Positions 7,685-13,725 of a stretch of 64,000 bases of DNA are shown piece after piece. Source of the DNA: Streptomyces sp. NBC_01551 (GTDB taxonomy: Bacteria; Actinomycetota; Actinomycetes; Streptomycetales; Streptomycetaceae); contig NZ_JAPEPX010000001.1 in assembly GCF_026339935.1 (NCBI RefSeq), positions 186,001 to 250,000 of the forward strand. The letters run 5' to 3'. The notes below the pieces were generated by a model. The model had not been told where the DNA came from. It worked only from the letters and a program-made list of their open reading frames with translations, and ran no database searches. The position numbers and the translations under genes are program-made. Position 1 is the stretch's first letter; every line of letters begins with the position of its first letter.

Positions 7685-8403
7685 ACCGGCAGCGGCACGA
7701 GGAGGAGCTGCTCGGACCATACGTTCTCGGCGTCCTCGACGACGAGGAGGTCCGCCGGCTCGAGGAACACATGACCGGCTGCGTGAGGTGCCGGGAGGAG
7801 GTGACGGCGTTGCGCGAGATGGAGGCGGTGCTCGGCGAGGTGCCCGAGGAGGCGTTCCTGGACGGACCGCCGCAGGGCGGCGATCTGCTGCTCCAGCGCA
7901 CGCTGAGGCAGGTGCGGGCCGAGAAGACGTCCGCGCGGCGCCGCGGCGGCGGCCTGGTGGGACTGGCGGCGGCGGCAGCGCTGGCCGCCGTGTTCTGGGC
8001 GGGCACGCAGCTGGGCACGGACGACGGGCGCAGCGTGGCGCAGACTCCCCCGCCGTCCCCGACGGTGTCGGCGGCGCCGACCCCGGTGCCGGGGACCAAG
8101 GTGGCCTCCGCGACCGACAACGTCACGGGCGCGCGGGCGACCGTCCAGGTGACGCCCGCCGCGAAGTGGGTGCGGGTGCACGCCGCGGTGACCGGGGTGC
8201 CGCCGGGTGAGCGGTGCCGGCTGGTCGTGATCTCCAAGGACGGCAAGCGGACCAGCGCGGGCAGCTGGGTCGTGGGCAGCCAGGAGAACGGCGAGGGCAA
8301 GGGCGCCGCCCTGGACGGCTCGGCGGCGGTCGACCCGGCCGACGTCAAGGAGGTCCTGGTCGAGAACGAGGCCGGCACCAAGTTCGTCTCCGTACGGGTG
8401 TAG
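7681..8403 (+). CDS. Zinc-binding anti-sigma factor (ZAS type), membrane-anchored
   Basis: A 240-residue partner of the upstream sigma factor. The N-terminal ZAS motif is visible as His30, Cys34 and Cys37 (EEHMTGCVRC), the HxxxCxxC pattern that binds zinc and often senses redox state. One transmembrane helix follows near residue 100 (GLVGLAAAAALAAVFWAG). The extracytoplasmic part (about residues 115-240) has the beta-rich RskA C-terminal type fold. It should hold the sigma factor inactive at the membrane until an envelope or redox signal arrives. It starts at ATG overlapping the sigma stop codon. Confidence 0.9.
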   Translation: MNRQRHEEELLGPYVLGVLDDEEVRRLEEHMTGCVRCREEVTALREMEAVLGEVPEEAFLDGPPQGGDLLLQRTLRQVRAEKTSARRRGGGLVGLAAAAALAAVFWAGTQLGTDDGRSVAQTPPPSPTVSAAPTPVPGTKVASATDNVTGARATVQVTPAAKWVRVHAAVTGVPPGERCRLVVISKDGKRTSAGSWVVGSQENGEGKGAALDGSAAVDPADVKEVLVENEAGTKFVSVRV

Positions 8404-8414
8404 CGGACGTGACA

Positions 8415-8445
8415 GGGCCCGGGAGCATGTCCAGCTCCCGGGCCC
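8415..8445 (+). terminator. Strong terminator hairpin after the anti-sigma gene
   Basis: GGGCCCGGGAGC at 8415-8426 pairs perfectly over 12 bp with 8434-8445 around a 7-nt loop, 12 nt after the stop codon. Because the RNA gene on the minus strand points toward it, it may also stop transcription from that side. Confidence 0.8.
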
Positions 8446-8483
8446 CTGCTTGCCACCCAATTGCGCACACCGGCGGCGTTTAA

Positions 8484-8591
8484 GAGTCGCGGATCATTCT
8501 CATACCGACGTGTTCTGCCTTTGAACTACCGCGCCACGAGAGAGGCGCAGAGGGGACTTGAACCCCCATCCGTCGGTGGCCGTCCGCGCTC
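8484..8591 (-). ncRNA. YrlA-type Y RNA-like RNA with a circularly permuted tRNA-like domain
   Basis: Read on the minus strand, the sequence folds as a tRNA with the order of its halves swapped. In transcript order: outer helix strand (8583-8591), 7-nt anticodon-stem strand (8571-8577), 3-nt variable region, T-arm (stem 8563-8567 with 8551-8555, loop UUCAAGU), acceptor 3' strand (8544-8550), an 8-nt closing loop (8536-8543), acceptor 5' strand (8529-8535), UA, D-arm (GUUC-AAAGGCA-GAAC, 8512-8526), A, the other 7-nt anticodon-stem strand (8504-8510), a 10-nt loop, and the closing outer strand (8484-8493). The acceptor pairs over 7 bp with one G-U. The anticodon stem pairs over 7 bp without mismatch. 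This is the architecture known for bacterial YrlA RNAs, where the anticodon stem continues into the Ro60-binding helix. Ends of the transcript are not determined. Confidence 0.75.
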
Positions 8592-8706
8592 GGTCGATCC
8601 GGTGATCGGCGGCGAATACTGAGACTGGAGCGAGAGTCTGAGATTGAAAGGGCTGACACCCCTTTTTCAGCTTCAACATCAGTTTCAGCTTGCGCTTTCG
8701 CGCCAC
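8592..8706 (-). other. Structured leader region upstream of the tRNA-like RNA domain
   Basis: On the minus strand this stretch has a run of small hairpins: GCGC-GAAA-GCGC (8692-8703), AAAGGG/CCCUUU with a 7-nt loop (about 8646-8666), AGACU/AGUCU, and CGAUC-ACCG-GAUCG (8595-8608). It could be the 5' part of the Y RNA-like transcript or its promoter region. An open frame starting with GTG at 8706 encodes a Lys/Leu-rich start (MARKRKLKLMLKLKKG) and runs into the RNA; I do not call it a gene. Confidence 0.45.
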
Positions 8707-8723
8707 CCCCTGCTCCCAGGGGG
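8706..8723 (-). terminator. Hairpin just after the DUF7873 gene
   Basis: CCCCCTG/CAGGGGG, 7 bp with a 4-nt loop, begins 12 nt past the DUF7873 stop codon. It may end that transcript or attenuate it, with some read-through into the RNA element. Confidence 0.5.
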
Positions 8724-8734
8724 CGATCGTGGGG

Positions 8735-9466
8735 CTACCGGAACAGGTAGCCGAACACCGCGTCCCCGACCCGCTGGTCGGTGACCTCGGCGCCGTTCGC
8801 CTCCTCGCGGGCGAACTTGACGGCCTGCTGGAGCTTCTCGACGCGGTCCAGCAGCTCGTTGACCCGGCGGGCGGGAAGTGCCCCCGAGAACTTCACCGTC
8901 GTCCAGTATCCGACGGCGACGTCCTCGTAGTACACCTCGACCTGGGCCGGGTGCTTCTCCGTGGCCTCGGCCTTGACGTGGTTGCGCGGCACCTTCTTGG
9001 TGCGGATGGTGCGCACCGGATCCGTCTTCCAGGCGTCCGTGGACGGGTCGAGGTTCCAGGACTCGGAGGCGTCCAGGACGGGCAGCTTGCGTACGAAGGT
9101 GTGCAGGTCGGTGAGCTGCTTCTCCAGGAAGAGCAGGTACGGGACCGGCACCTGCGCGAGCAGCGTGTTCCCGTCGACGACGACGTCGGCGGCCGCCGTG
9201 CGGTTCGCCCAGTCCTTGGTCGCCGTCACGTCGAACAGCCGCGTCAGCGTGGTCGCCGTCGCGCGCAGCACGTCCTCCGCCTGGACCTGGACCCGGGTGG
9301 ATTCGGGCGGCAGCTGCTCGCCCTCCTCGTCCTTGGGCTGGTACGTCCGCGAGATGCCGGCCAGCAGGGCGGGCTTCTGGACGTCGTGGTGAGCCTGGGT
9401 CAGCTCCTGGAGGGACTTGGACTTGACGCCCTTTTCGACTGCGATGATCTGATTCAGCTTCGGCAC
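8735..9466 (-). CDS. DUF7873 family protein, upstream of the Y RNA-like element
   Basis: A 243-residue soluble protein starting MPKLNQIIAVEKGVKSKSLQ, which I recognise as the DUF7873 type found in actinobacteria and in some actinobacteriophages. It has charged helical stretches at both ends (DRVEKLQQAVKFAREEANG near residue 210), a central beta-rich part (PVPYLLFLEKQLTDLHTFV) and ends in GYLFR. No membrane segment or known catalytic motif is seen. The molecular function is not known. It is transcribed toward the tRNA-like RNA, with only about 140 bases between its stop and the RNA core, so a functional link with that RNA is plausible but inferred. Start ATG at 9466 is the only good choice. 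Confidence 0.8.
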   Translation of the reverse strand: MPKLNQIIAVEKGVKSKSLQELTQAHHDVQKPALLAGISRTYQPKDEEGEQLPPESTRVQVQAEDVLRATATTLTRLFDVTATKDWANRTAAADVVVDGNTLLAQVPVPYLLFLEKQLTDLHTFVRKLPVLDASESWNLDPSTDAWKTDPVRTIRTKKVPRNHVKAEATEKHPAQVEVYYEDVAVGYWTTVKFSGALPARRVNELLDRVEKLQQAVKFAREEANGAEVTDQRVGDAVFGYLFR

Positions 9467-9542: not shown

Positions 9543-10781
9543 TCATCGGTGGGCTCCGAGGGCGGGGGTGGGGGTGTAGGACACCGGCAGTTCGCCGAGG
9601 CCGCGCAGCCAGGGCGAGGGGCGCCGCTTCAGCTCGTCGGCGGGCACCGCGAGGTCGACGTCGGGGAGCCGGTCGAGGAGCACCTCGATGCCGGTGCGGG
9701 CGATGACCTCGGCGATCTCCTGGGCCGGGAAGGGGCAGCGGTGTTCGCCGTGCCCGAAGGAGAAGAAGGCGCTGTTGCCGCCGGTGAGGGCGCCCGCGTC
9801 GGTGCGCACCTGGGGGTCGGAGTTGGCGGCGGCCAGGCCGAGCAGCACCAGGTCGCCGCGGCCGATGCGGCGACCGCCGAGGTGGGTGTCACGGGAGGCC
9901 CAGCGGCCGGCCACGTTCTGGGTGGGGGTGTCCTCCCAGAGGACCTCGTTCATGGCCTCGCCGACGCTGTGCCGGCCGCCCGCGAGGGAGGCCGCGAACC
10001 GGTCGTCGGTGAGCATGAGGCGCAGCGAGTTGCCGATCCAGTCGGCGGTGGGCTGGTGGCCGGCGGCCAGCATCACCATCAGGTCCTGGGCGATCTCGTC
10101 GACGGTGAGCCCGGTGCCGGCGGCGAGCATCCGGGAGGCGACGTCGGGGCCGGGCTCGGCCCGCTTGGCGGCGAGCAGCCCGTACATCGACTCGGCGACG
10201 TGGCGCTGGCCGTCCAGGGCGCCCTCCCGCCCGTTGACCATGTCGTTCATGGCGGTGACCAGGCCGGGGCCCTGCTCGTCGGAGAAGCCGTAGATCCGGG
10301 CGAGGACGCGCAGCGGCAGCAGCATCGCGTACTCGGCGACGATGTCACAGGCCCCCTTGCCGCACAGGGCGTCGATCAGCTCGTCGGCGAACCGCTCGGC
10401 GTGGCCCTTGAGTTCGAAGGGATCCACGGACTCCAGGGCATCGCAGATGAGCCCGGCCCGCTGCCGGTGGCGTTCGCCGACGGTGTAGAGGACCGACTTC
10501 TGCTCGCGGCTGATCACGGGGAGCAGGGGCCAGTCGGCCGGGATGCGGTCCCACTGGTTCCACAGGGCCGAGTCGCGGGAGAACAGCACGGGGTCGCCGG
10601 TGACCTGGTGCAGTTCGCGGTAGCCGAGGACCAGCCAGGCGGGCACGTCGCCGTCGAGGACGACGGGCGCGACGGCGCCGTGGTCGCGCCGCATCTCCCG
10701 GTACAGCTCGGCGGGTTCGGTCTGGAACCGGGGGCCGCCGAGGTAGACGGGCGGGGCTTCGTGGTCGGCGGGCGTGGTCAC
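9543..10781 (-). CDS. cvnE: Conservon cytochrome P450 (CYP157-like), CvnE
   Basis: A 412-residue P450, last gene of the conservon. The haem-binding loop is intact: FGHGEHRC with Cys349 as ligand. The I-helix has AAGHQPTADW, a divergent form of the usual A/G-G-x-D/E-T. The K-helix position that should read ExxR reads EVLW (residues 279-282), so the Arg is missing. Absence of ExxR is a known trait of the CYP157 family, which sits in Streptomyces conservons. The start is GTG at 10781, overlapping the GTPase stop by 4 nt; an in-frame extension to 11084 is shadow of the GTPase gene. Substrate is unknown. Redox partners are not in the window. Confidence 0.88.
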   Translation of the reverse strand: MTTPADHEAPPVYLGGPRFQTEPAELYREMRRDHGAVAPVVLDGDVPAWLVLGYRELHQVTGDPVLFSRDSALWNQWDRIPADWPLLPVISREQKSVLYTVGERHRQRAGLICDALESVDPFELKGHAERFADELIDALCGKGACDIVAEYAMLLPLRVLARIYGFSDEQGPGLVTAMNDMVNGREGALDGQRHVAESMYGLLAAKRAEPGPDVASRMLAAGTGLTVDEIAQDLMVMLAAGHQPTADWIGNSLRLMLTDDRFAASLAGGRHSVGEAMNEVLWEDTPTQNVAGRWASRDTHLGGRRIGRGDLVLLGLAAANSDPQVRTDAGALTGGNSAFFSFGHGEHRCPFPAQEIAEVIARTGIEVLLDRLPDVDLAVPADELKRRPSPWLRGLGELPVSYTPTPALGAHR

Positions 10782-11419
10782 GGGGCGGGCTCCGGGGTCG
10801 GTGGCACGAGGTGCGCTTGGAGGTGCTGGACGAGGGAGATCAGGACGTCCTTGGCGGACGCGCGCGAGCGGGCGTCGCAGAACACCAGCGGGACGTTCTC
10901 GGGCAGGTCGAGGGCCTGGCGGACCTGCTCGGCGGTGTGGGCGGGGCCGCCGAAGTCGTTGCAGGCCACGATGAAGGGCGTGCCGTGGTGTTCGAGCCGG
11001 TCGATGGCGTACCAGGAGTCGGCGAGCCGGCGGGTGTCGACGAGGACGACCGCGCCGAGGGTGCCGGAGAACAGCCGGTCCCACAGGAACCAGAACCGCT
11101 CCTGACCCGGGGCGCCGAACAGGTAGAGGACGTTGTGCGCGTCGAGGGTGATGCGGCCGAAGTCGAAGGCGACGGTGGTCGCGGTCTTCGTCGCGACACC
11201 GGCGGTGTCGTCGACGGCCTCGCCGGCCTGGGTCATGGTCTCTTCGGTGTTCAGCGGGCGGATCTCGCTGACGGAGCGGACCATGGTCGTCTTGCCGACG
11301 CCGAAACCACCCACGATGACGATCTTCAGCCCGTTGTCGGCGGTGCTCCGCAGCGCCGGGGTCCGGCGCCGGTCGTCGTCGGGCCGGTCTGCGCCCTGGT
11401 CAGAGATCGCGGAGTCCAA
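10778..11419 (-). CDS. cvnD: Conservon Ras-like GTPase, CvnD
   Basis: A 213-residue small GTPase. G1/P-loop GGFGVGKTT lies near residue 38, the G3-like segment is LFGAPGQERF near residue 105 (DxxG replaced by GAPG, as in other conservon GTPases), and the G4-like segment is ACNDF in place of NKxD. Conservon GTPases work with the sensor-like CvnA, the roadblock protein and the DUF742 protein in a membrane complex likened to a eukaryotic G-protein system. It overlaps the DUF742 gene by 20 nt and the P450 gene by 4 nt. Confidence 0.93.
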   Translation of the reverse strand: MDSAISDQGADRPDDDRRRTPALRSTADNGLKIVIVGGFGVGKTTMVRSVSEIRPLNTEETMTQAGEAVDDTAGVATKTATTVAFDFGRITLDAHNVLYLFGAPGQERFWFLWDRLFSGTLGAVVLVDTRRLADSWYAIDRLEHHGTPFIVACNDFGGPAHTAEQVRQALDLPENVPLVFCDARSRASAKDVLISLVQHLQAHLVPPTPEPAP

Positions 11420-11798
11420 CGAGCACCTGCTCCAGGATGGCGGGATCGGGAAGTCGGTACGAGGGGTACGCCGAGCCGGGTTCCGTGCGGGGTCCTCTGC
11501 CGGGAGCCGTGCGCGGGTGGCGGGCGCTGATGCGGCCGGTGCCGAGCAGGTCGTCGAGGAGGATCCGGACGATCGACACCGGCAGTTCCAGCTCGGCGGC
11601 GATCTCCACGACCGCGGTCGGGAACCGGCACATCCGCAGGATCGCCGCGTGCTCCGACTGCATGCCCGCCACCGGGTCGCACTCGGCGACGATCAGGGTG
11701 ACCAGGTCGAACGCGTCGGAGCCGGAGCGGCTGCGGCCCCCGGTGAGGGTGTACAGCCGGTCCGGGGAGTCGTCCCGGCCCGGCCTCTTGCGGCTCAA
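11400..11798 (-). CDS. cvnC: Conservon DUF742 protein, CvnC
   Basis: A 132-residue DUF742 protein. Recognisable blocks are DRLYTLTGGRSRSGSDAFDL, EHAAILRMCRFPTAVVEIAA and the helix-turn-helix-like PVSIVRILLDDLLGTGRI. It is part of the conservon membrane complex. Start ATG at 11798 overlaps the stop of the roadblock gene. Confidence 0.93.
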   Translation of the reverse strand: MSRKRPGRDDSPDRLYTLTGGRSRSGSDAFDLVTLIVAECDPVAGMQSEHAAILRMCRFPTAVVEIAAELELPVSIVRILLDDLLGTGRISARHPRTAPGRGPRTEPGSAYPSYRLPDPAILEQVLVGLRDL

Positions 11799-12196
11799 CC
11801 CCGTGGCCTGGCGATCAGATGCTCGCTCAGCTGCTCCACCAGTTCGGACATGTTGTGACCGACGAGCCCGGCGTCCGCGTCGTCGGCGGCGACCAGCGCG
11901 AGGTGCGCGCCCTCACCGGCTTCGACGATGAACAGGATTCCGCCGTGGAACTCGGCCATCGCGGAGCGGACGCCGCCGGTGCCGTCGCCGAACTCGATGG
12001 ACGCGCCGTGCGACAGGCTCTGGATGCCGGCGGCTATCGCGGCGAGCTGGTCGGCCTGGTCAACGGAGAGCTCGGGGGTGCGGCACAGCTTGAGGCCGTC
12101 CCGGGAGAGGACGAGGGCGTGCCGGGCGCCGGGGGTGCGTTCCAGGAGGCCTTCCAGGAGCCAGTTGAGCGTCTCGTCGGTGGTGGTGCCGGTCAT
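11795..12196 (-). CDS. cvnB: Conservon roadblock/LC7 protein, CvnB
   Basis: A 133-residue roadblock/LC7 domain protein (LNWLLEGLLERTPGARHALVLSRDGL, then QLAAIAAGIQSLSHGASIEF). In bacteria these partner with small GTPases as activators or adaptors. Overlaps both neighbours (ATGA junction with the kinase-like gene), so the operon is tightly coupled. Confidence 0.94.
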   Translation of the reverse strand: MTGTTTDETLNWLLEGLLERTPGARHALVLSRDGLKLCRTPELSVDQADQLAAIAAGIQSLSHGASIEFGDGTGGVRSAMAEFHGGILFIVEAGEGAHLALVAADDADAGLVGHNMSELVEQLSEHLIARPRG

Positions 12197-13725
12197 TTTT
12201 CCGTTTCGCCTTCCGGGTGCGGGGGGTTCGAGGGCTGCGTCGGCGCGGCCGCGGCGCGTACGGCCTGGCGGAAGCTGCCGAAGCGGGCGGCCGAGCGGGA
12301 CGCTCCGCCAGGCGGGGGCGCGGTACGGGGCGCGGCGTCGGGCCCCTCGGGGTGAGCGGCGGCCAGCGTCCGCCCCCGCCGCCGCTGCGGCAGCCCGCCG
12401 GGGCCGGTCGCCGGCTCCTCGCCGCCGGGGCGCGCGCCCGGGCCGTCCTCTCCCCGGGACTCGACGCCGCGCGCCGCCACCGCGGCGGGGCCCACCGGGT
12501 CGGCCGGAGTGCCGTGGGCAGCCTCGGGCTCGGCGGCGTCGGCCGTCGTCCGGGCCGGGGCGCGGCCCTCGGCAGACGCCGGGCCGGCGGCGGGCGGAAG
12601 GTCGATCGGGAGGGGGGCCACCGGCGGATCCGACGGCGTGCGGCTGAGGAGGTCGTGCGGGAGGAGCATCAGGGCGCCCGTGCCGCCGCGGGCGGAGGGG
12701 CGGAAGGAGACGGTGAGGCCGTGCTTGCGGGCGAGGCGGCCGACGACGGCGAGGCCGAGGCGGGTTCCGGAGAGCCCGGCGAGGTCGAGGGACTCGGCGG
12801 TCACGGCGCGTTCGGCGCGCCGCAGCTGCACGTCGCTCATCACCAGCCCGCTGTCCTCGACGGTGATGACGATCCCGGCCGGCACCTCCTCCACGTACAC
12901 GTGGACCTCGGCGGTCGGCGGGGAGAAGTTCGCGGCGTTGTCGAGGAGTTCGGCCAGCGCGTGCATGACGCCCTCGGCGGCGTGCCCGGCGACGGCGGCG
13001 TCGCTGGTGGAGTGCAGCCGGACCCGCTGGTAGGCGCCGATCCGGCCCATGGCGCCGCGCAGGATGGACTCCATGACGATCGGCTTCGCCCAGCGGCGGC
13101 CCGAGCGGGCTCCGGTGAGGACGGCGATGGAGTCGGCCATGCGCCCGGCCTGGGCGGTGCGGTGGTCGAGGTGGAGCAGGTCCCCGAGGACGTCCTCGTC
13201 GGCGTGCCGGTGCTCCATCTCGCGCAGGTCGGCCAGCATGCCGGTGGCGAGCGCCTGCATCCGCCCGGCCGTGTTGGCGGCGGCGGCCATCGCGGCGGCA
13301 CGGCCGGACTCGGCGCGGCGCAGTTCCTCGCCGAGCCGCTCGCGGGTGGCGGCGTGGGCGGCGTTCGCGGCGCCGAGTTCGGCGGCGTGCGCGGAGGCAC
13401 GGCGCGCCAGTTCGTCGGCGTGGATCCCGGTGAGCCGGTCGAGTTCGGCGGTGCGGGCGGCCGTCTCGGAGGTCAGCCGTGCGATCCGCGCCTCACCGTC
13501 GCCGATCCGGCGGCGGAGCACCCGGGCCGTCTGGGCCAGCCAGGTCACGGCGAAGGCGGCGACGCTGAGCAGCAGGGCGCCGGAGCCGGCGAACCAGGCC
13601 AGGGGAACCTGGACGGACGAGGGGGCCGCTGCCACCGCCGCCGTGCAGAACGCGCCCGAGGCCAGCGTGGTGACCAGCATGGCGAGGGCGGAGGGGCGAA
13701 GGGGGGAAGGCGACGCCGACATCAA
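12193..13725 (-). CDS. cvnA: Conservon sensor histidine kinase-like protein, CvnA
   Basis: A 510-residue membrane protein and first gene of the conservon. Two hydrophobic helices (about residues 14-35 and 43-63) are followed by a long coiled-coil segment (ARIARLTSETAARTAELDRL onward). The ATPase domain has the N-box ELLDNAANFSPP and a G-box-like VEDSGLVM, where the usual DxGxGM is degenerate. No classical H-box histidine motif is evident, typical of nitrate-sensor-like conservon kinases. The last 130 residues are a disordered Pro/Ala/Gly-rich tail ending over the next gene's start. Start: two consecutive ATGs at 13725/13722; I take the first. Confidence 0.9.
   Translation of the reverse strand: MMSASPSPLRPSALAMLVTTLASGAFCTAAVAAAPSSVQVPLAWFAGSGALLLSVAAFAVTWLAQTARVLRRRIGDGEARIARLTSETAARTAELDRLTGIHADELARRASAHAAELGAANAAHAATRERLGEELRRAESGRAAAMAAAANTAGRMQALATGMLADLREMEHRHADEDVLGDLLHLDHRTAQAGRMADSIAVLTGARSGRRWAKPIVMESILRGAMGRIGAYQRVRLHSTSDAAVAGHAAEGVMHALAELLDNAANFSPPTAEVHVYVEEVPAGIVITVEDSGLVMSDVQLRRAERAVTAESLDLAGLSGTRLGLAVVGRLARKHGLTVSFRPSARGGTGALMLLPHDLLSRTPSDPPVAPLPIDLPPAAGPASAEGRAPARTTADAAEPEAAHGTPADPVGPAAVAARGVESRGEDGPGARPGGEEPATGPGGLPQRRRGRTLAAAHPEGPDAAPRTAPPPGGASRSAARFGSFRQAVRAAAAPTQPSNPPHPEGETEK

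Follow-up and report, generated by a model that had tools for sequence, protein, structure and literature searches.

The minus strand of a 64,000-nucleotide stretch of DNA from Streptomyces sp. NBC_01551 (the whole stretch analysed, hereafter the window) carries an element that looks like a tRNA with its two halves swapped, and the question raised by this locus is what kind of RNA this is and which protein it serves. Y RNAs are described as the RNAs of Ro60, which is their usual carrier protein, and an earlier note on this DNA had proposed a Ro60-bound Y RNA of the YrlA type at 8484..8591. The permuted fold described for 8591-8484 on the minus strand was recovered element by element: the tRNA-like core (8504..8577) consists of a T-arm (8567-8551), a 7-bp acceptor stem (8550-8544/8535-8529) closed by an 8-nt linker (8543-8536), and a D-arm (8526-8512), all resting on a 7-bp equivalent of the anticodon stem (8577-8571/8510-8504), beyond which a 5x10 internal loop separates it from an outer helix that joins the two ends (8591-8583/8493-8484). 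The RNA thus lies where it had been placed, but the range given was too narrow. Consensus folding of 26 loci with RNAalifold, pair counts and the match of a covariance model (R1) put the full conserved structure at 8452..8613, since two further helices, 8604-8599/8473-8468 and 8613-8608/8457-8452, enclose 8591-8484. Between the first of these and the outer helix lies a conserved internal loop of the basal stem, with ATCGACC unpaired on the 5' side (8592..8598) and TTAAACG on the 3' side (8477..8483), all on the minus strand. A gene of the DUF7873 family is directly followed by a tandem pair of tRNA mimics, CP1 and CP2, of which this RNA is the second (CP2); the range given also left out the related first element at 8694-8619.

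The permuted module is the only one detected in the window. When the 64 kb were scanned for the pattern on both strands, this module alone was returned, with the maximum score of 42, a value never reached by 30 dinucleotide shuffles per strand, which gave eight matches at 36 and nothing above. RNAfold of 8591-8484 returned the described structure at -46.7 kcal/mol (z -2.58), with 2 of 200 shuffles equally stable, and R1 matched 8471-8610 with 128.3 bits, the window being a member of its training set. The Rfam YrlA model, suggested in the earlier note as a check, did give a full-length match to 8589-8484, although its 32.6 bits (E 1.9e-5, 361 nt searched) fall below the gathering score of 69; a scan of the whole window at gathering scores gave no Rfam match, tmRNA included. 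This cut-off alone decides little, because the two YrlA-like RNAs directly upstream of the Ro60 gene of the same genome also fail it (48.8 and 38.8 bits), which suggests that Streptomyces Y RNAs may be under-annotated. A YrlA score alone proves equally little, since a tandem tRNA-Asn pair in the same genome (L119; G000 C1:1902606-1902718) scores 40.7 bits. Tandem tRNAs are therefore an artefact class in searches for permuted tRNA-like RNAs; the artefact is real at L119, and was rejected for CP2 because ARAGORN finds no tRNA anywhere in the window, so that CP2 does not arise where two neighbouring tRNA genes meet.

Covariation was assessed solely on an alignment (A3) of 26 loci, comprising the window and loci from Streptomyces, Kitasatospora, Actinacidiphila and one Nonomuraea, each starting where the upstream gene stops; the covariance models were built without the anticodon stem (R1) or any basal pairs (R2), which RNAalifold missed in mixed alignments. 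For A3, RNAalifold predicted 95 pairs, 44 of them with at least one double-sided change, and the 71 pairs lying in CP1 and CP2 were counted. Their cells are paired in 98.0% of cases against 41-49% after sliding one strand, a control that flatters the structure because the structure came from the same alignment. The stronger part of the case is the shuffle control together with the double-sided changes of CP2. Over both RNAs, double-sided changes occur in 33 of the 71 pairs (shuffled mean 14.9) and in 156 cells (shuffled mean 38.6), and 0 of 500 shuffles were as high. The covariation for which the earlier note had proposed a test in the acceptor, anticodon-stem and outer helices is indeed present, with double-sided changes in 5/7, 7/7 and 7/9 pairs, respectively, and is accompanied by changes in 4/5 pairs of the T-stem, 2/4 of the D-stem and 2/6 of the helix 8604-8599/8473-8468; the outermost helix (8613-8608/8457-8452) shows none. 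In CP1, the head covaries (acceptor 4/7, T-stem 2/5), and the D-stem and basal stem show no double-sided change; as the latter is nearly invariant, it is backed by conservation and fold, not by covariation. On the 3' side of CP2, a GC-rich hairpin (8415..8445, minus strand; 12 predicted pairs in A3, eight with double-sided changes) is the probable end of transcription, devoid of a U tract and shared with the convergent anti-sigma gene; a terminator scan that requires a T run found no terminator.

The first mimic, CP1 (8619..8694, minus strand), has a long basal stem (5' strand 8689-8667, 3' strand 8642-8619), both strands of which show a periodicity of about six bases. In the window, a short hairpin caps this stem where the tRNA-like head would be, and the covariance model R2 gives a full-length match to 8694-8619 (47.5 bits) in which the head is lacking. 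Among the A3 loci, the head is present in 21/26 and absent in five (the window, L038, L050, L065 and L113), in which the caps partly differ and the stem is kept; this exchange of the head for hairpins on a retained stem is as expected if the stem is a protein site. Where the head exists, its D-arm is strongly conserved (TAGCCCAA..GGnAGAGGC). An attempt to match the D-arms to one specific tRNA of the genome was dropped, as the CP2 D-arm pattern is present there solely at CP2 itself and the CP1 pattern nowhere. In most relatives, CP1 lies between DUF7873 and CP2. Eighty named loci out of at least 542 relatives were scanned, and at least one module was found downstream in 80/80; six further loci gave four positives, the two negatives (L033 and L036) both lying in an orientation which that scan ignored. 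A second count, restricted to the 67 of 80 loci in which the gene end could be placed, found both modules in 60 and CP2 alone in seven, the 13 loci left out having had two modules each in the first scan. RNAalifold of the 26 loci also predicts two more small hairpins at 8734-8690, between the DUF7873 stop codon and CP1.

The gene preceding the two RNAs (8735..9466, minus strand) encodes a 243-residue protein matched over its whole length by the Pfam family DUF7873 (PF25283; E 3.4e-121), the only Pfam match at E 0.001, the TROVE profile that detects Ro60 being unmatched. Neither NCBIfam nor PHROGs gave a match, and an assignment to known anti-phage defence genes was rejected, as no PADLOC defence family matched at E up to 1. 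The AlphaFold2 model (pLDDT 91.5, pTM 0.75) predicts long helices and a long two-stranded hairpin. Foldseek with this model found nothing at E ≤0.001 in the PDB or BFVD: one BFVD row was an uncultured phage protein (probability 1.00, TM 0.43/0.56, E 0.016), and weak Cas7 rows with TM-scores of 0.08-0.14 were disregarded; a sequence search of the PDB gave no match better than E 0.1. Residues invariant across 18 sequences include K116, K127, W137, K158, H172, W188 and R220, and no active site is apparent by inspection. The simplest guess is a structural RNA-binding protein, RNA binding being inferred from linkage in view of the lack of a confident structural relative. No paper on DUF7873 was found in the open-licence literature, although it may have been described earlier in papers on bacterial Y RNAs.

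In a survey of 150 Streptomyces genomes, all 70 carriers of DUF7873 have CP2 downstream of the gene and on its strand, at a distance of 131-345 nt; because R1 was trained partly on such loci, this is less telling than the finding that none of the 80 genomes without DUF7873 (0/80) has an R1 match of at least 60 bits. R1 gives some match in 139/150 genomes, and the matches separate by location: behind DUF7873, 68 of the 70 score 61-132 bits and two about 51, and away from it, among the matches listed (down to about 47 bits), the scores are at most 56, with Ro60-adjacent Y RNAs and the tandem tRNA-Asn pair as the examples inspected. Laboratory strains with the cassette include S. lavendulae CCM 3239 and S. 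virginiae NRRL ISP-5094. A conserved operon neighbour was sought and rejected, as no flanking gene is common to more than 14 of the 69 Streptomyces loci with full flanks, so the DUF7873 unit stands alone. Upstream of DUF7873 in the window (9543-13725) are Roadblock and ATP-binding genes, identified by Pfam, and P450-like and histidine-kinase-like genes, recognized by eye, which together resemble a Streptomyces conservon; the conservon-like members tested are common to only 8-9 of 80 loci.

The same unit occurs in viruses. A search of 50,697 phage records yielded 73 with DUF7873, and 363 IMG/VR contigs were confirmed to contain it, 80 of which were kept. In 76 of these 80, some of them near-duplicates, the sequence runs on for 400 nt or more downstream of the gene; 67 of the 76 carry a same-strand module no more than 900 nt away, and 29 of the 67 carry two, against none in shuffled sequence, three upstream (one of them representing real RNAs located upstream of the gene, L265) and one on the reverse strand. 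Six of the nine contigs missed by the pattern were recovered by R1 or R2 (L219, L233, L237, L257, L261 and L265), bringing the contigs with an RNA nearby to 73/76; L209, L211 and L243 are without a module by pattern, R1 and R2. Since both models were trained partly on IMG/VR rows, the Gordonia phage Phendrix and similar close kin are no independent test; cyanophage Pam2 (66 and 54 bits), Racecar and Ziko lie further from the training rows. The unit of DUF7873 and RNA is found in phages of Actinobacteria, Cyanobacteria and Klebsiella. Eleven named phages were read. Racecar, Phendrix, NiceHouse, Pam2 and KpLz-2_45 have two modules each, and the covariance models add Ziko with two and PA-SR01 with two of weaker score. 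The distant Vibrio phage D517 and two likewise distant Rhizobium phages (L186-L188) have a single mimic, whose linker contains G-CCA, and an ordinary tRNA stands next to it where other phages have their second mimic; in a Microcoleus phage both models match only about 1.8 kb downstream of DUF7873. In large phages, the unit lies in several cases among tRNA genes; of the 18 viral loci of the first round, nine contain tRNA genes called by ARAGORN, the call at L130 overlapping the mimic itself. Two observations made in passing concern neighbouring viral RNAs: the tRNA array of Phendrix contains a tmRNA match (L180:2072-2600; 89 bits, cut-off 47) that is missing from the feature table, and a group I intron-like match (L128:2689-2908; 44.7 bits, cut-off 50) lies upstream of a viral DUF7873.

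We consider it probable, on the strength of sequence comparison, that DUF7873, CP1 and CP2 form one self-contained cassette making a Y-RNA-like ribonucleoprotein independent of Ro60, with DUF7873 as the putative protein partner. In this cassette, the two RNAs would be made as such, DUF7873 would bind the conserved basal stems, that is, the periodic stem of CP1 and the ATCGACC/TTAAACG loop of CP2, and the tRNA-shaped heads would be presented to proteins recognizing the tRNA body, such as tRNA-modifying enzymes, PNPase or a tRNA-cleaving nuclease. This division of labour follows the plan of Ro60, with the protein on the basal stem and a partner on the tRNA-like head (PMC8394870). The most likely use of such a cassette would be to tether, occupy or decoy a tRNA-recognizing factor, and its presence in large phages, in several cases among their tRNA genes, would then make sense; the role of competitive inhibitor of an anticodon nuclease suggested for YrlA (PMC7790460) would by analogy fit a phage-carried unit. 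Besides the linkage, the viral occurrences and the covariation, it speaks for the cassette reading that the Ro60 loci of the genus share the plan of a protein gene beside tandem mimics with a stem motif of their own. In 20 Ro60-flanking stretches, 26 modules were found, often in tandem, and, like CP1 and CP2, the Ro60-linked Y RNAs (L278 and L280, for example) are permuted mimics beside one protein gene, yet their basal motif is GCGAAGGCAGGACCTACTTCC / GTCGGTTCCGCC..GATCTCTGGAC instead of ATCGACC/TTAAACG. The CP2 motifs occur in 0/26 of these modules and are largely kept in CP2 from both chromosomes and viruses. Two tandem tRNA-mimic families, each tied to its own protein gene, thus coexist in one genus.

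The alternative that survives best, though it is unlikely, regards the RNAs as a cis element, namely the 3' untranslated region of the DUF7873 mRNA, which would control the mRNA or be bound by its product in autoregulation; the tRNA-like shape would then attract RNase P or tRNA enzymes that process the transcript. The constant closeness of the RNAs downstream of DUF7873 on the same strand speaks for it, as does a scan for sigma-70-type promoters, the only type within its reach, which detected no promoter-like site in 8200-9000. On the other hand, in the two viral contigs mentioned above the RNAs lie upstream of the gene (L265) or on the opposite strand (L261), which suits a free RNA better, and two divergent mimics with different stems would seem to exceed the needs of a processing signal.

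We regard as more doubtful still the reading closest to the earlier note, in which CP2 is an ordinary YrlA RNA bound in trans by the host Ro60 (Rsr) and DUF7873 is a mere neighbour. Its order of T-arm, closed acceptor and D-arm on a basal stem made from the two predicted ends of the RNA is that of YrlA (RF02553), the YrlA match is full-length, and the source genome does encode a Ro60 (C1:4919120-4921160; L001, L292) with a long open frame and a DRSGSM motif. However, this gene is the only TROVE match in the genome and has its own Y RNAs, with a different basal motif, directly upstream (the two YrlA matches given above); it lies at C1:4.92 Mb, and CP2 at C1:0.19 Mb, with DUF7873 as its nearest gene. 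By the TROVE profile, Ro60 is present in 81/150 Streptomyces genomes and DUF7873 in 70/150, with both in 42; their occurrence is independent (Fisher p 0.19), and 28/70 DUF7873 carriers have no TROVE match. As this profile covers only about 60 residues of the Streptomyces Ro60, the survey was redone with the Ro60 of the source genome, which matched in 84/150, the three extra genomes (G283, G337 and G344) having short pieces; 26/70 carriers have no match and two (G337 and G344) have fragments only. In 15 of the 28 TROVE-negative carriers the locus was scanned, and the module was seen in 15/15. Likewise, TROVE is unmatched in 31 of 34 virus records (3/34 match), the set comprising 11 named phages (0/11) and 23 IMG/VR records, many of which may be fragments. 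A co-dependence on Ro60 was therefore rejected, although Ro60 could bind CP2 in trans in the 42 genomes that have both. Some Ro60 operons are linked to tRNA repair; RtcB occurs in only 1 of 30 DUF7873 virus records, so this link is not carried over to the DUF7873 viruses, and a tie to RtcB RNA repair was rejected. In several Streptomyces genomes (G258, G327, G030, G005 and others), the Ro60 gene has internal stops or is fragmented, so that some lineages appear to be losing Ro60. Deinobacterium chartae is the only one of 14 control genomes matching TROVE or DUF7873, and it matches both. Altogether, the Y-RNA-like part of the earlier proposal, a permuted mimic with covariation, stands, and its identity as a Ro60-bound YrlA is not supported: CP2 differs from YrlA in its sub-threshold score, in adjoining DUF7873 instead of Ro60 (70/70 carriers), in its conserved basal-stem motifs and in its occurrence in genomes without detected Ro60, and is likely, judging from these sequence features, a Y-RNA-like RNA outside YrlA proper, with DUF7873 as its probable partner.

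It is more improbable again that the RNAs come from genuine tRNA genes of a circularly permuted or a two-piece (tmRNA-like) kind, in which the linker would be cut, CCA exposed or added, and the molecule aminoacylated. Permuted tRNA genes of archaea and algae and the two-piece permuted tmRNA have swapped halves with a linker between the acceptor strands, as have the CP RNAs, and in non-redundant sets the linker begins with N-CCA in 19/29 viral CP1 and 20/26 viral CP2 (UCCA in 19 of these 20), where composition predicts 3-4%. The chromosomal sets read differently, with N-CCA in 7/16 CP1 and 0/14 CP2 (1-5% expected from composition across sets), and the Ro60-linked modules have it in 6/26; N-CCA is common in phage copies, a difference from YrlA, but in view of these counts it is not a mark of charging, and its value for setting the CP RNAs apart is weakened. 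The linker CCA may be a feature of the tRNA body read by some tRNA-binding enzyme, or a processing signal. The CP RNAs differ from permuted tRNA genes and tmRNA in that neither an anticodon nor its loop is conserved, inspection by eye reveals no splice motif, and Rfam at gathering scores matches nothing in the window; the 7-bp stem continues into the outer helix, and the CP1 head is absent in 5/26 loci. The GCC anticodon that the earlier note had considered would lie in a stretch not conserved among homologues, for which reason this reading was rejected, and by eye the junction does not have the form of a bulge-helix-bulge motif. Finally, a chance alignment of two unrelated tRNA remnants has a negligible probability, because, although tandem tRNA genes such as the tRNA-Asn pair do mimic the pattern, the window is without tRNA, the covariation including the outer helix was judged already excluding, and the module recurs in phages of distant hosts.

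With the Ro60-independent cassette as the preferred reading, a broader and more tentative proposal, which we put at somewhat below an even chance, is that DUF7873 and its twin RNAs represent a second class of Y-RNA-like particle that evolved on its own and is both spread by phages and shared with them, and whose two mimics on protein-specific stems would act in the struggle between phage and host over tRNA, where they would serve as a decoy or gate for, or an inhibitor of, some tRNA nuclease or other tRNA-handling enzyme. A widespread cassette that keeps the mimic heads beside a different protein gene would suggest that tRNA mimicry, and not Ro60, is the constant part of such particles, and it would provide a lead to the function of DUF7873, a family so far named only for its unknown function, its phage versions included.
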